The notes beneath the pieces are model-generated. The model had not been told where the DNA came from, ran no database searches, and saw only the letters and a program-made list of their open reading frames with translations. Of a stretch of DNA of 34,361 nt, positions 1 through 6,614 are shown piece after piece. Both the position numbers and the translations under genes were made by a program. Position 1 is the first letter of the stretch; each line of letters opens with the position of its first letter. The stretch comes from Sulfurovum sp. (lineage in GTDB: Bacteria; Campylobacterota; Campylobacteria; Campylobacterales; Sulfurovaceae): contig DYMX01000014.1 in assembly GCA_020721345.1 (NCBI GenBank), positions 1 through 34,361 of the forward strand, read 5' to 3'.

Positions 1-14
1 TAAAAAGAACAAAA

Positions 15-98
15 GGAGAATAGTGTACTATCACTATCACCTGACCCCTATTCTTTCTATTCTTCAAAATGTGCTATTACTATCACCTGACCCCTATA
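15..98 (+). repeat. Two direct copies of a REP-like element (ggagaatagtgtactatcactatcacctgacccc / aaaatgtgctattactatcacctgacccc) plus degenerate tgacccctatatt units to about 152
   Basis: Direct reading: 15-48 and about 67-94 share ctat(c/t)actatcacctgacccctat; partial tgacccctatatt copies recur near 101 and 140. Inverted counterpart at 1894-1926. Confidence 0.85.
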
Positions 99-151
99 TT
101 GTGACCCCTATATTGCTATATTCTATATTTCTATATTTGTGACCCCTATAT

Positions 152-334
152 TTGAATGGCATTGAAAGCTTTTGGAGCTTTACTAAAAGAAGATTATTTC
201 AATTTAATGGTCTTAATGATGATACCTTCTATTTGCATCTAAAAGAGAGTGAGTTTAGGTTCAATAATAAAGTTAATGATTTGTATGGTATAATGTTAAA
301 GAGTTTAAGAAAAATCCTCTTTGAATTCAAATAA
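152..334 (+). pseudogene. C-terminal remnant of an IS1595-family (ISXO2-like DDE) transposase
   Basis: NGIESFWSFTKRRL.QFNGL...FYLHLKESEFRFNNK...LLKSLRK matches the typical C-terminus of this family; the N-terminal part is missing and homology starts directly after the repeat at about 152. Confidence 0.75.
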
Positions 335-339
335 AAATA

Positions 340-360
340 GGTCTAAAGTTTACCAGACCC
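340..360. repeat. Possible terminal inverted repeat (right end) of the transposase remnant
   Basis: ggtctaaagtttaccagaccc lies just downstream of the transposase stop codon and itself has GGTCT/AGACC arms; no partner left end is visible. Confidence 0.3.
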
Positions 361-386
361 TAATGCATTATAAAAACTAAGGAGCA

Positions 387-1814
387 ATGATGAAGAGAGG
401 GATTATAGTCTTATTGTATTGTGCTATGCTGAGTATCTTGGGTTGGGCAAAAATGCCAGAAGCCATGCTGGTGCTGGATGCTTCAGGTAGTATGATGGGA
501 CAAATCGGAGGAGAGAGTAAAATCGCCAGTGCGCAGCGGGTGTTTGCTGAAGTATTGCCGACTTTTCCAAAAGAAACACCACTAGGATTGGTCGTCTATG
601 GTCACCGTGCCAAAAAGAAGTGCGACGACATTGAGTTGCTGCATCCTTTGGGGTTGAACAATCGTGATGTGTTATTGCAAAGCGCTAAACCCATCAAGCC
701 ACTTGGCATGACGCCGATTTCAGATGCAATTGCCAAGGCGTTGGGGTCGTTTTCCAAAGATGCGACGCAGCACATCGTGGTTCTGCTTAGCGATGGGATT
801 GAGACCTGCAAGGCGGATCCATGCGCATTTGTTCGCACTCTCAAAGACGCGGATGCCAAACTGATACTGTATATCGTCGGTTTTGGCGTCAAGGCAGACG
901 AAAGCGCTTCGCTGCGTTGCATGGCGAAGGCAGGCGGAGGAGAGTATTTTGATGCGCGGGATGCATCCAAGCTGCTTGAGGCATTTCAGACCATTGGTCA
1001 AAAAGTTGAAGTCGCTGTTAAAGGGGCCAAAACAGTCACCAAAAAAGTGGCGACCGGATTGGGCAAATTGCACATTTTACTACCCAAAGAGGCTGCGATC
1101 AGCCTTGCCGACATCAAACTGATCCGCACTTCAGATGATAAACTCATCAAAACCGCCGAAAAACCCGACGCAGATGCTACCTATCCCCTGCCTTCCGGCA
1201 AGTACCGCATCGTGCTCGGATTTGCCAATCCCAACTACCAGCCGCCGACAGATGTGACCCTGGGGAGTTACACGGTTGAGCCAAAAATGACGACCGAAGT
1301 GCGACTCGGCGCATTGGCGTATAATATCGCGCCCGCGCTCCAAAAGCTTCCGGCAGCAGCCGTGACGGTTGCATCTTCTGGAAACAATTTTGCGCTGAAG
1401 TTGCAAAGCCACAACAACGGCTACTACCTTTTTAAGCCCAAGCCGCTGCCGATAGGCAAGTACCAAGCGGGGATTCTTTATTCACAGAGCAAAACACCTA
1501 TGCTTTTTACGGCGCCTGTACAGATTGAAGAGGCACATACGACCTATGTGACGATTGATTCCGGATTTAAAATCATCAAGCCATCCCAGGGCGATGATGT
1601 GCAGAGGTGGGAGTTGGTCAAAGGGAATGGCGGAAAATCGGTGCTTGGAGTCGAGCGCCGCTGGGACAACCAATACCCATTATGGGAGAGTTTTGCTGTA
1701 TCACCGGGACGCTATAGTGTTCGATTTTTTCTTAAAGGTATGCCGGAGCCGCTCGATGCCGGTGAGTTGGAGATCAAAAAAGGTGAATTGGCCGAGTTTG
1801 AGAGCGGATTGTAA
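387..1814 (+). CDS. Exported von Willebrand factor type A (VWA) domain protein
   Basis: 475-aa ORF with RBS aaggag, signal-peptide-like N-terminus, intact MIDAS-like motif VLDASGSM, downstream GMTPIS and LLSDGIETC. Richer in G/C than the neighbouring genes. Confidence 0.85.
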   Translation: MMKRGIIVLLYCAMLSILGWAKMPEAMLVLDASGSMMGQIGGESKIASAQRVFAEVLPTFPKETPLGLVVYGHRAKKKCDDIELLHPLGLNNRDVLLQSAKPIKPLGMTPISDAIAKALGSFSKDATQHIVVLLSDGIETCKADPCAFVRTLKDADAKLILYIVGFGVKADESASLRCMAKAGGGEYFDARDASKLLEAFQTIGQKVEVAVKGAKTVTKKVATGLGKLHILLPKEAAISLADIKLIRTSDDKLIKTAEKPDADATYPLPSGKYRIVLGFANPNYQPPTDVTLGSYTVEPKMTTEVRLGALAYNIAPALQKLPAAAVTVASSGNNFALKLQSHNNGYYLFKPKPLPIGKYQAGILYSQSKTPMLFTAPVQIEEAHTTYVTIDSGFKIIKPSQGDDVQRWELVKGNGGKSVLGVERRWDNQYPLWESFAVSPGRYSVRFFLKGMPEPLDAGELEIKKGELAEFESGL

Positions 1815-1864
1815 CGGGAGGCACTCTATGCAAAAAATGTGAGTATAGGAGTATAAAGGTTAAA

Positions 1865-1926
1865 GTCAAGGAGTCAAGGAGTCAAGGAGTCAAGGGGTCA
1901 GGTAATAGTGATAGCACATATTCTCC
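1865..1926. repeat. Tandem octamer array (GTCAAGGA)x3 + GTCAAGGG running into an inverted copy of the left-end REP-like repeat (ggggtcaggtaatagtgatagcacatattctcc)
   Basis: Direct reading; reverse complement of 1894-1926 is ggagaatatgtgctatcactattacctgacccc, closely matching 15-48. Confidence 0.85.
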
Positions 1927-1994
1927 TCTTTTTTTCTTTATAAAAATTATATCGCAAACTTTCTCTTACCTCTATATTCCCTATGCTTGAAAGT

Positions 1995-3096
1995 TCATTG
2001 CTTCATCTTCCTAACCCAATTCCAAAAAAGCCTCTCATTATCCGCTCTTTTGTCGATAGGCTTTTGCTCAATCATCAGATTTGCCAACTCCTTTGCCAGA
2101 TATGGCGCAAGCACAAATCCTCTCGCGCCCAAACCATTTAAAATATATAGATTTTCATGATAGATAGTAGGATATTTTCTACCGTCAAATATATAAGGAT
2201 ACTCAAACATCTTATTAGCGTCTATCACTTTGCCGACAACTGGCGAAAAGTCCCTACTCCCACTCCCTCATACCACAATACGTTTTAATGAGCTTAAAAT
2301 CGCTTGTATCTATCATATTTGATGCTTTTTCTAAAAGCTCATAATCTTTACTATCATCACACGGCTTTTTGTCTATAACTTCAAGCTCATGAGTAGCGCC
2401 AAGTTTGATAACTCCACCCATATTTGCAGAAATTGATAGTGATTCATGCATACTGACATCGAGTTTTAGCTGTGAGCTAAAGTCGCCACGATTTCCCCAA
2501 GTACCTTTTATACCCATATATCTCATATCAAATAGATCATTTTCAAATCCTGTTGAGAGAACGATATTTTTTGCTTTTTTGTCTTTAACTATCCAAACAT
2601 CATCTTTTTTTGTTATATCTTTGACATCAAAGCGTAAAAAATCTATGTCTTTTACTAATTCTGTGCAAATCTCTTTTGCATCACATGTGCCGCCGTCAAA
2701 AAACAGAGTTGAGTTATATCTGACATCGAAGCCATATTTGCTTATCTGACTAGGTGTCAGCTCTGCATATTTTGCATTGTGAAATTTGGAATATTTTGAA
2801 GTTTTAGAAGCATTAAGCTCATCTTTGGGTACTCGTATCACTCCTGTTTGATGATAGTATTGTGGGAAATTCTTTTTATAAAAATCTATCGTAAAATTAA
2901 ATGCATCGTCTGTTAGATCTTTTAGAGGCGAACTCACACCTATCTTAGGAGAGAGAAAAGCTCCGGCAGCACCGCTCCCGCCGCTTGCAATACCTTCTTT
3001 ATCGACTAGTAGAACTTTTTGATTTTTTTGTTTTAAAAAATAAGCAACACTACAACCTGCGATCCCTGCACCTATGACTACAGTATCGTAAAGCAT
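1995..3096 (-). pseudogene. mnmC: MnmC C-terminal-like FAD-dependent oxidoreductase, single frameshift at about 2254-2268
   Basis: ORF 2254-3096 has a Rossmann GxGxxG FAD motif (VVIGAGIAGCSVAYFL); ORF 1995-2228 continues it (NGLGARGFVLAPYLA). Removing one G restores CGMRSGSRDFSPVVGKVIDANK across the junction. Confidence 0.75.
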
Positions 3097-5099
3097 TAGA
3101 TAGTTATCTCTTTTATATCGGCAATGTTTTTAAAACTATTATAAATTTGTCCGATAGTTGCTAAGCGGTTATTTTTCAAGGATACATCATCGCTATTTAC
3201 CATAACTTTATCAAAATAATTATCAAGTAACTCTTTTAGAGAAAAAAGTGCTTTTAAATTATCTTCATAACTCTCATGTTTTTTTGAAATTATATTTTTG
3301 AACTGTGTATAAAGATCTTTTTCTTCATCCAACTCAAATTTATCCTCATCAACATTAAAATCGCTTACATCTTTTGATATATTTGCTACTCTTTTAAATG
3401 TTATGGATATATCTTTAAAGTCATTTCCACTAACAATGCTATTTAGCGCTTCGCATTTTTTAAATATTTTGACTATATCACTCTCATTTGAACTTAAAAC
3501 TGCATTTATAATCGAAGGATTCATATCTATACTTTTTGAAATTCTCTCCAACATAAATGCTTTTAGTTGTTTTAAATCAAACTCTTTATATTCATTTGCA
3601 AGCCCTTGTATCATCTCGTCAATATCAAAAGGCAAGTCAAACTCTAAAACGATTCTAACTATCCCGTTAACCGCTCTTCTGAGCGCAAATGGATCTTTAG
3701 AGCCTGTCGGGATCTTACCGACGCTAAATAAACCTATAAGAGTGTCAAGTTTTATCGCCATTGCTACTATTGCGCTAAATATAGAGCTTGGAAGTTCGCT
3801 TCCCTCGCCTGTTGGCATATATTGCTCTTTTATTGCTAAGCGCACGTCGCTATCAAGATTTAAAGCTTTGGCGTAATAATAGCCCATAAGCCCCTGAAGC
3901 TCTGTAAACTCGTAAACCATCTCACTTGTAAGGTCAGCTTTAGCAAGGCGCACGGCTTGGCTTATCTTTTTACCATCAATGCCGAATTTGCTTGCCAAAT
4001 AAAGTGCAATTTTTTCTTCTCTGTCAATTTTATCGATAACTGTACCCAATCCATCCATAAACTGCACAAGCTCAAGCCCATCAATTTTAAGTCCACGCTT
4101 TAGGTCATTTTGATAAAAGAACATAGCGTCGCTAAGTCTAGGTTTAAGCACTCTCTCATTACCTGCAACTACTTTACTATAATCATCCGTTAGAGCATTA
4201 CTTACTACCACAAAGTGATTTGATAATTTATCTCCATTGAACACAGGAAAATATCTTTGATTTTCTTTCATAGATGTTATGATAACTTCAGGTGGTAAAG
4301 TCAAAAATGCTTCCTCAAATTTACCAAGCAACGCTTTTGGATTTTCCGTAATTGCCACAACCTCATCAAGCAGATCTTCATCTATCTCTATGGTTATATT
4401 GTTCTCTTTTTGAAGCTCTGCAAACTCTCCAAGAATCAACCCTCTTCTATCATCAGGCTTTAGCAATACGCTACCCTCTCTTAAGATACTTTCAAAATCA
4501 CTAATTTTTACAACTTCTTGTTTTTCAAAACTTTTCATTCTATTAACATAAGTAAAATTACTGCTCTTAACACCAAAAAGTTCAGCATCCACAACACCAT
4601 CATCAAGTCTAACTTGAAGCCATCTGATCGGTCTTATAAACTCATCGCTCCTATCTCCCCATCTCATCATTTTTCCAAACGACATAGACTCTATCCACTC
4701 TTTTATCATATCTTCCAATAATGAAGCAGTATCAACACCTTCTTTTGTACTACTATAATAAAGCGCTTCTTTGCCTCTATCCACAGTAGTAGAAAGCGCG
4801 CTGAACTCAACGCCGCACTTGTTGGCAAAACTAATTCCTGCCGGTGTCGGTATGCCGTTTTTTGTTGCTATTGCCACAGGGGGTCCAAAAAGTTCCATGT
4901 TCGAATCGGCTTGTTTAAGAGAAATCTCTTTGTGTATCAGAACTAATCGTCTAGGAGTATAAAAGAAGTCAAAATCACTTGCAAGCAGATACTTCTCTAA
5001 AATATTACTCCAAGATGATTTTATATTGTCTATGATTTTTAAAAGTGGGATTGCCGGAAGTTCTTCGACTCCAACCTCTACCAATAATTGTGCGCGCAT
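3096..5099 (-). CDS. glyS: Glycyl-tRNA synthetase beta subunit
   Basis: MRAQLLVEVGVEELP N-terminus, GSKDPFALRRAVNGIVRI motif, 667 aa. Confidence 0.95.
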   Translation of the reverse strand: MRAQLLVEVGVEELPAIPLLKIIDNIKSSWSNILEKYLLASDFDFFYTPRRLVLIHKEISLKQADSNMELFGPPVAIATKNGIPTPAGISFANKCGVEFSALSTTVDRGKEALYYSSTKEGVDTASLLEDMIKEWIESMSFGKMMRWGDRSDEFIRPIRWLQVRLDDGVVDAELFGVKSSNFTYVNRMKSFEKQEVVKISDFESILREGSVLLKPDDRRGLILGEFAELQKENNITIEIDEDLLDEVVAITENPKALLGKFEEAFLTLPPEVIITSMKENQRYFPVFNGDKLSNHFVVVSNALTDDYSKVVAGNERVLKPRLSDAMFFYQNDLKRGLKIDGLELVQFMDGLGTVIDKIDREEKIALYLASKFGIDGKKISQAVRLAKADLTSEMVYEFTELQGLMGYYYAKALNLDSDVRLAIKEQYMPTGEGSELPSSIFSAIVAMAIKLDTLIGLFSVGKIPTGSKDPFALRRAVNGIVRIVLEFDLPFDIDEMIQGLANEYKEFDLKQLKAFMLERISKSIDMNPSIINAVLSSNESDIVKIFKKCEALNSIVSGNDFKDISITFKRVANISKDVSDFNVDEDKFELDEEKDLYTQFKNIISKKHESYEDNLKALFSLKELLDNYFDKVMVNSDDVSLKNNRLATIGQIYNSFKNIADIKEITI

Positions 5100-5160
5100 A
5101 AGATTAAATTTCCTATAAAATAAAGTTAATTATTTTACCCAATATTTCGTAAAGAGGCGG

Positions 5161-5304
5161 TTAAGAGTTATTCTCTTCTTCTTTCATATCTTTTCTCTTC
5201 CAATCCTCATCAAACTTTCCTTTGTAATAACTTCTTATATTAAAAATCGTAATAGCTATGAACATAATCAATGCTATGTAGTAAATTATCTCTTTTGTCT
5301 CCAT
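5161..5304 (-). CDS. Small single-TM protein (47 aa), hypothetical
   Basis: METKEIIYYIALIMFIAITIFNIRSYYKGKFDEDWKRKDMKEEENNS; its ATG overlaps the stop of the upstream trmL-like gene (TAATG); below the ORF-track size cutoff. Confidence 0.6.
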   Translation of the reverse strand: METKEIIYYIALIMFIAITIFNIRSYYKGKFDEDWKRKDMKEEENNS

Positions 5305-5777
5305 TATAAATTATCCTTTATTACTTCATAATTTTGTCTTATAGCTTCGTAAGTTACAATTCCGACACTAAGTGCGAGATTTAAACTTCTTCCATTATCA
5401 CTGCTCATGGGAATAGTTATACAATTTTTAGCATTTTCATCTAAAATATAACTAGGTATTCCCTTTGTTTCAGAGCCAAAAACTAAAAAATCGCCTGCTT
5501 TATAACTGCTATTAAAATATAAATTTTTTGTTTTTGTCGTAGCAAAATGAAATCTATCATCTATTGGGTTGTGGAACAAAAAATCATCTAGACTTTCCCA
5601 AACTTTCAGATCAAGCTTTTCCCAATAGTCAAGTCCTGCCCTTTTAACTTCTTTATCATCGATAGAAAAACCGAGCGGCTTAACCAAATGCAAAGTTGCG
5701 CCTAAATTTACGCAAAGTCTTCCAATTGTGCCGGTATTTGGCGGAATTTGTGGATTGATTAGAACTATGTTGAACAT
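5304..5777 (-). CDS. trmL: tRNA (cytidine(34)-2'-O)-methyltransferase (SPOUT family)
   Basis: FNIVLINPQIPPNTGTIGRLCVN, LVFGSETKGIP, IPMSSDNGRSLNLALSVGIVTYEA. Confidence 0.9.
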   Translation of the reverse strand: MFNIVLINPQIPPNTGTIGRLCVNLGATLHLVKPLGFSIDDKEVKRAGLDYWEKLDLKVWESLDDFLFHNPIDDRFHFATTKTKNLYFNSSYKAGDFLVFGSETKGIPSYILDENAKNCITIPMSSDNGRSLNLALSVGIVTYEAIRQNYEVIKDNL

Positions 5778-6614
5778 TTAAAAAATTATTGTCTTATTGC
5801 CGTTTACAAATACTCTGTCCGTTAGCACTAGATCAAGCGCCCTGGAAAGTACGATCTTTTCCACATCTCTTCCTGCACGCTGCATATCAGTCCAGTCAAA
5901 TCTGTGATTTACCGGTATTACATCTTGGGAGATAATCGGTCCTTCATCGAGGTCGTTTGTTACAAAGTGTGCTGTTGCGCCAATGATCTTAACGCCTCTA
6001 TGGAAAGCTTGTTTATATGGATTTGCTCCAATAAAAGCCGGCAAAAATGAATGATGGATATTGATGATCTTACCTGTAAAATGCGTTACAAAATTTGGTG
6101 TTAGAATCCTCATATACTTTGCAAGTACAACATAATCAAATTCAAATTCATTTAAAAGATCTATAATGACCCCTTCATGCTCTTCTCTGCTCATCTCGTC
6201 TGCGCTTATATGAAAAAACGGTATATCAAACCTTCTGACAAGCTCTTCGAGGGTATTGTGATTTGCCACAACAGCAACTATCTCGGCATCAAGTTCATCA
6301 TCTTGATGACGTATAAGTATATCGCCTAAAGCATGAGATTCTTTTGTTGCCATAAGAACTATTTTTTTTCTTTTTGGCATAATTACTTTTATATTTGCAT
6401 CATTCGGCAGCGCAACCAAAAGTTCGCTTTCAAGTATCTCTGGGTCAAATTTACCTGAAATTACGGTTCTCATAAAAAACCTATTTGTTTCAACATCAAC
6501 AAACTCTTGATTGTCTTCTATATTTAGATCTTTATCAAAAAAAAGTTTTGAAATTTTATAAACCAAGCCCTTGTCATCATTACAGTCAATTAAAATTCTT
6601 GCTTTTAAACTCAT
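5778..6614 (-). CDS. purU: Formyltetrahydrofolate deformylase
   Basis: N-terminal ACT-like region and formyltransferase domain (NIHHSFLPAFIGANPYKQAFHRGVKIIGATAHFV...EGPIISQDV). Likely start is the internal Met (MSLKARILIDCNDDKG) rather than 6677, which lies inside leuB. Confidence 0.9.
   Translation of the reverse strand: MSLKARILIDCNDDKGLVYKISKLFFDKDLNIEDNQEFVDVETNRFFMRTVISGKFDPEILESELLVALPNDANIKVIMPKRKKIVLMATKESHALGDILIRHQDDELDAEIVAVVANHNTLEELVRRFDIPFFHISADEMSREEHEGVIIDLLNEFEFDYVVLAKYMRILTPNFVTHFTGKIINIHHSFLPAFIGANPYKQAFHRGVKIIGATAHFVTNDLDEGPIISQDVIPVNHRFDWTDMQRAGRDVEKIVLSRALDLVLTDRVFVNGNKTIIF

Follow-up and report, generated by a model that had tools for sequence, protein, structure and literature searches.

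Inward-pointing TIRYT 3' ends beside mnmC and a likely helix–hexamer address system in TIRYT terminal repeats

The inverted repeats at the start of the window (the whole 34,361-nucleotide stretch that was analysed, contig C37 of a Campylobacterota source genome, G000, of 51 contigs and 1.24 Mb) are, as far as their sequences tell, the 3' ends of two different copies of TIRYT, a transposase of the Y1/HuH type, and the two ends point at each other. The repeat GGGGTCAGGTGATAGTGATAG is the terminal inverted repeat (TIR) of TIRYT. In the window itself we see a TIRtron pair that has decayed within a hotspot of accessory genes, which is ordinary; the new part is a covariation, seen across TIRYTs, between a helix of the transposase and the hexamers of its TIR. 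We consider it very likely that, taken jointly, TIRs of a TIRYT resembling TnpA_Y1 subclass 2.1, two 3' ends with inserts accumulated between them and a helix-turn-helix (HTH) domain reading the hexamers explain the observations.

Inverted repeats and their dispersal

Comparison of the window with itself revealed three inverted pairs: 66-95 with 1893-1922 (30 nt, 90% complementary), 24-49 with 1893-1918 (26 nt, 92%) and 1-22 with 1919-1940 (82%). These bear out the inverted pair of 33-34 bp reported by the first-pass annotation. In its left copy, placed at 15-48, positions 15-23 are coding (GGA GAA TAG) and represent the end of a TIRYT gene. A direct extra copy at 70-97 was missing from that list. 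The 21-mer core corresponds to the three TIRs in Table 1, the one at 74-94 being partial.

The 21-mer occurs eight times in the 1.24-Mb genome, while the same sequence read backwards does not occur at all, so the repeat is not a product of chance. The other copies in the source genome are located on contigs C25, C33, C13 and C10. A scan of GTDB contigs found the 21-mer in 27 stretches, mostly from Campylobacterota MAGs and often less than 100 bp from a contig end, as is expected because such repeats break assemblies. The repeat therefore recurs in the genome and in its relatives, as the first-pass annotation had suggested, and is not unique to this locus, which had been named there as counter-evidence. 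Two sites, C13:35864 and C13:38319, carry the 10-mer head and were treated as chance matches because no hexamer tail is recognisable behind it. A second TIR-like family, GGGGTCAGTCGCCACCTTGAAAAATC..., with an identical head, adjoins the first family at L011 (4230-4265), at L013 (around 5620) and on the bpt side of L110. The Rfam search of window positions 1-4000 gave no match.

The two ends in the window

Window positions 1-54 are identical to C25:4146-4199, which comprises a TIRYT 3' end and its TIR. Judging from these 54 shared bases, the body of the left TIRYT would lie beyond the contig edge, where it can only be inferred since the contig ends at base 1. The first-pass annotation saw no Y1 transposase because the contig starts inside the TIRYT gene. 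At the right end, the eroded remnant extends about 40 bp beyond the TIR, and the score of its local alignment with the TIRYT tail was reached by 4 of 5000 shuffles. Moreover, the right TIR and the remnant are also present beside mnmC in the congener G010, with which window positions 1887-6092 are collinear in a strong match. The tandem copies of AGTCAAGG in front of the right TIR are possibly a product of slippage or a junction scar.

Table 1. Features of the slot and its right border in the window
Feature	Position	Strand	Evidence
Last codons of a TIRYT gene (KRTKGE-stop), cut by the contig start	3..23	+	Identity of 1-54 to C25
3' TIR of that TIRYT: GGGGTCAGG + TGATAG TGATAG	28..48	-	Repeat comparison, genome scan
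Second TIR copy, one mismatch, orientation as 28-48	74..94	-	Repeat comparison
IS1595-family element, 5'-truncated: transposase C-terminus 152-334, terminal repeat 340-360	141..361	+	NF033547, E=2e-6
VWA-domain protein, foreign, exported-type, 475 aa, MIDAS-like DASGS	387..1814	+	PF00092, E=1.4e-9
Four copies of the 8-bp AGTCAAGG, merging into the right TIR	1864..1895	+	Window self-comparison
TIR of a second, eroded TIRYT: GGGGTCAGG TAATAG TGATAG, opposite orientation	1894..1914	+	Repeat comparison
Eroded 3' coding end of the second TIRYT	1919..1956	-	Local alignment to TIRYT tail; match to G010
mnmC-type FAD oxidoreductase, right slot border, split in two frames near 2228-2254	1995..3096	-	ORF and profile search

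The TIRYT element

The only near-full TIRYT copy in the source genome is on contig C25 (L011), where a TIR at 3328 (plus strand), a frameshifted Y1 gene at 3397-4168 and a TIR at 4173 (minus strand) follow one another. Its open reading frame matched Y1_Tnp (PF01797, E=4.5e-17) and REP_Tyr_transpos (NF047646, E=7.7e-22, just below the curated cut-off of that model) and carries the motifs NHYH and YIEQNP. The first-pass annotation had likened the repeat core to repeats associated with REP/RAYT transposases of the Y1 type, and the C25 gene between two TIRs indeed places the repeat in a REP/RAYT-like Y1 system. The alignment shows a helix-turn-helix-like C-terminus, GYSQHMIAKVLGLxQxxVxxVIKR, for which the match to Pfam HTH_3 was weak (E=0.008). 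As the C25 copy is frameshifted into 197 aa and an 81-aa tail ORF, present activity of TIRYT in this genome seems doubtful. A more decayed copy is located at C1:282-464. The plasmid search with TIRYT gave no match.

The arrangement was compared over 58 TIRYT loci from the source genome and its relatives, allowing up to two mismatches to the head GGGGTCAGGT. The head was found 55-87 bp 5' of the start codon in 43 of the 58 loci (2 with reversed flanks) and in inverted orientation around the stop codon in 33 (1 with reversed flanks). The intact type of element is thus TIR-TIRYT-TIR with the heads directed outwards. A TIRYT gene can end within its TIR, which then furnishes the stop codon (...TITIT-stop), as at the 3' ends in L089 and L118; the TIR is also translated inside other long ORFs as LSLSPDP (L087, L118).

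The TIRs folded no better than shuffled sequences (z from -1.0 to +0.7), and GTAG is absent from them. The repeat is therefore not a REP, since it has neither a significant hairpin nor a GTAG foot, and identity with a classical REP/REPIN, a palindrome with a GT[AG]G foot, was ruled out.

Covariation of the TIR hexamers with the C-terminal helix

In the 57 related TIRYTs compared, the TIR has a head that stays constant, followed by two tandem hexamers specific to the element. The identity of the tail with itself is 0.69 at lag 6 and 0.20-0.25 at other lags, except for the harmonic lag 3 (0.40). The 5' and 3' tails share 0.91 identity within an element and 0.45 between elements, a difference reached in 0 of 20000 permutations. 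The recognition helix, xQyz, was first seen to track the hexamer in an alignment of 16 proteins, and 41 of the 57 elements lie outside that initial set. The helix residues PT occur with ATAG in 5 elements, PA with ATAA in 20, QA with ACAA in 10, ST with AACG in 9, AT with ATGC in 6 and SA or AA with AAAA in 3; two elements show one-base variants of the hexamer (L052, L219), and in the two exceptions (L141, L143) the repeat spacing is altered. An unbiased scan of 206 variable columns placed six recognition-helix columns (241-248 of L037) at the top. In distant TIRYTs (<55% identity) a similar match of helix and tail is visible by eye, in some of them with tandem 7-mers.

These elements are related, and common ancestry, not recognition, could produce such a correlation, the more so as only 4-6 independent pairs lie on the starred branches. 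This explanation appears unlikely. The hexamer can be predicted from two columns of the recognition helix in 52 of 57 elements, whereas the nearest catalytic domain gives it in 22 of 57, and at least 27 hexamer changes are required on the catalytic-domain tree. Among independent pairs on supported branches, P goes with ATA in 6 of 6 (p=0.031) and the last base of the hexamer agrees in 4 of 4; for Q against ACAA/AAAA, three pairs agree and two are uninformative. Moreover, L233 and L239 are 92% identical over the first 180 residues, in the catalytic part, yet only 53% identical in the C-terminal part, and they differ in both helix and hexamer.

The HTH domains of TIRYTs probably read the TIR, a link that is correlative. 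We regard as likely a modular address system in which the HTH helix would read the tandem element-specific repeat behind GGGGTCAGG, helix and repeat switching together. The approximate code would be [A/S]QPT-ATAG, [A/S]QST-AACG, NQAT-ATGC, SQPA-ATAA and [S/T]QQA-ACAA. In the proposed mechanism, the Y1/HuH domain would cut and join single strands at the constant head, as its family suggests, and the two tandem hexamers (here TGATAG) would be read by the C-terminal HTH, which would probably act as a dimer. Each transposase would thereby act on its own TIRs and on any solo copies and dimers that descend from these. The covariation can be tested concretely and cheaply by asking whether the HTH domain binds to swapped hexamers, and it offers a way to match each orphan TIR family to its own transposase. 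It may also illustrate how a DNA-binding helix and the site it binds co-evolve rapidly.

The VWA gene and the bpt-mnmC slot

The first-pass annotation had noticed a transposase remnant and a complete VWA gene of deviating composition between the repeats, and both were recovered (Table 1). The VWA gene, a foreign insert, has a G+C content of 50% (GC3 55%), compared with 35% (GC3 28-29%) in its neighbours, is present in a single copy in the source genome and lies in neither the IS1595 element nor a TIRYT element. The gene was absent from all 10 congeners searched, and at E 1e-45 no homologue apart from the window's own was found among 397 Campylobacterota genomes. The plasmid search with the protein recovered the VWA domain alone (37-41%), Pfam and NCBIfam matches beyond that domain were weak and far under the cut-offs, and PADLOC gave none. 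The IS1595 fragment has a G+C content of 28.5%, and its exact end (340-360) recurs at four other places, on contigs C11, C16, C19 and C35.

Comparison of the occupants between bpt and mnmC identifies this slot as a hotspot for accessory genes in the genus. The first-pass annotation had proposed to look for an empty site, and G004 provides it: bpt and mnmC nearly abut there at their stop codons. Defence genes occupy the slot in three congeners; across the loci compared (L109, L110 and L111), the occupants are a cytosine methylase with a PD-(D/E)XK nuclease in G002, an Snf2/PLD protein in G009 and a PD-T7-like gene in G010. In the source genome, contig C2 begins within bpt and truncates it at residue 64, and the left border of the slot lies off the window's contig. 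The best view of the VWA insert is that it adds a further accessory gene to this hotspot. The two mnmC frames (2254-3096 and 1995-2228) correspond to one intact ORF of 365-369 aa in congeners; the split gene is either a pseudogene or a sequencing or assembly error.

Alternative explanations for the layout

The first-pass annotation read the VWA gene as the cargo of a compound or non-autonomous unit bounded by the repeats. On such a reading, a TIRYT encoded at another locus of the genome would move these ends. The foreign gene is indeed flanked by an inverted pair, a cognate transposase gene exists in the source genome, and in G010 a foreign PD-T7-like defence gene likewise has a GGTGGCGACTGACCCC-type TIR on one side and the homologous TIR near mnmC on the other. 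The heads of the window pair, however, face inwards, whereas those of intact elements face outwards, as do at least 12 close dimers (inverted TIR pairs less than 300 bp apart in relatives) against 0 inward ones among the dimers listed. It is because of this orientation that the pair does not make a TIR-bounded cargo unit; both ends are separate TIRYT 3' ends with remnants of transposase coding sequence. Where inward pairs occur at other loci, the genes between them are ordinary: a porin in L107, for example, or a DEAD helicase and other genes in L090. The right repeat is shared with G010, which has no VWA gene, so it predates the VWA insertion or is independent of it. The gene standing at this slot without repeats across the genus, also named as counter-evidence, was not observed, because the gene is absent from the genus. 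A second copy of the VWA unit was found neither in the genome nor in the genus, and the cargo reading was rejected on end orientation and on this missing second copy; we give it hardly any weight. Outward TIR dimers of 45-150 bp, like REPIN/MITE-like non-autonomous TIRYT units, were observed at G008:C8, G014, G024, G030 and G033.

Passenger genes occur in the IS1595 family, and the VWA gene starts 27 bp past the IS1595 terminal repeat, which could make it a passenger of the adjoining element. The gene nevertheless lies outside that repeat, the element is 5'-truncated, and the compositions of the two (50% and 28.5% G+C) do not match. This candidate, very improbable in our view, was rejected as the window holds a single IS1595 end and the gene is not enclosed. 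The layout might also be partly an artefact of assembly, contig C37 joining unrelated sequences at repeats, and it is true that the MAG contigs of the source genome break at TIRs and IS1595 ends and that the VWA gene is foreign in composition. The independent genome G010, however, shows the right TIR joined to mnmC as well, and the VWA gene is intact between mapped features of a single contig, which makes an artefact very unlikely too. Under the preferred reading, two TIRYT 3' ends with inserts accumulated between them, an ancestral TIRYT would have inserted beside mnmC and then decayed, and a later TIRYT, an IS1595 copy and the VWA gene would have piled up there, probably by independent insertions and recombination; we infer this order of events. 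Neither a target-site duplication nor a transposition event was observed.

Comparison with known systems

The IS1595 family is represented in the window by a remnant that has a terminal repeat but is 5'-truncated, with the VWA gene outside it. The REPtron/RAYT (TnpA_REP) system resembles the one described here in its domesticated-type Y1 transposase, dispersed flanking repeats and short inverted dimers, but differs in that the TIR lacks a GTAG/GTGG foot and a significant hairpin.

Y1/HuH TIRYTs flanked by GGGGWSAS TIRs were described by Di Nocera et al. 2013 (PMC3733652), and that paper gives the same picture of a Y1/HuH gene between such TIRs, with repeats dispersed as singles, dimers and clusters. 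Its GGGGWSAS corresponds here to GGGGTCAG, a literature search for which returned only noise. The source genome contains a Y1 gene (C25), of which the window itself keeps the last six codons, GGGGWSAS TIRs and dispersed TIRs; unlike the TIRYTs of that description, its copies are broken or eroded. The tandem hexamers and their link with the HTH are not given in the passages of that paper that were consulted.

The closest class among the Y1 transposases is TnpA_Y1 subclass 2.1 (PMC6006769), which shares the HuH motif NH[YF]H, the tyrosine motif YIExNP, a length of about 255 aa, a C-terminal HTH, the absence of a nearby hairpin REP and a frequent occurrence in epsilonproteobacteria. The likeness rests on the motifs, which accord with the published table of this subclass. 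Quentin et al. 2018 (PMC6006769) left open the role of the HTH in target recognition for subclass 2.1; the covariation described here bears on that question and points to the C-terminal domain as probably involved in recognition.
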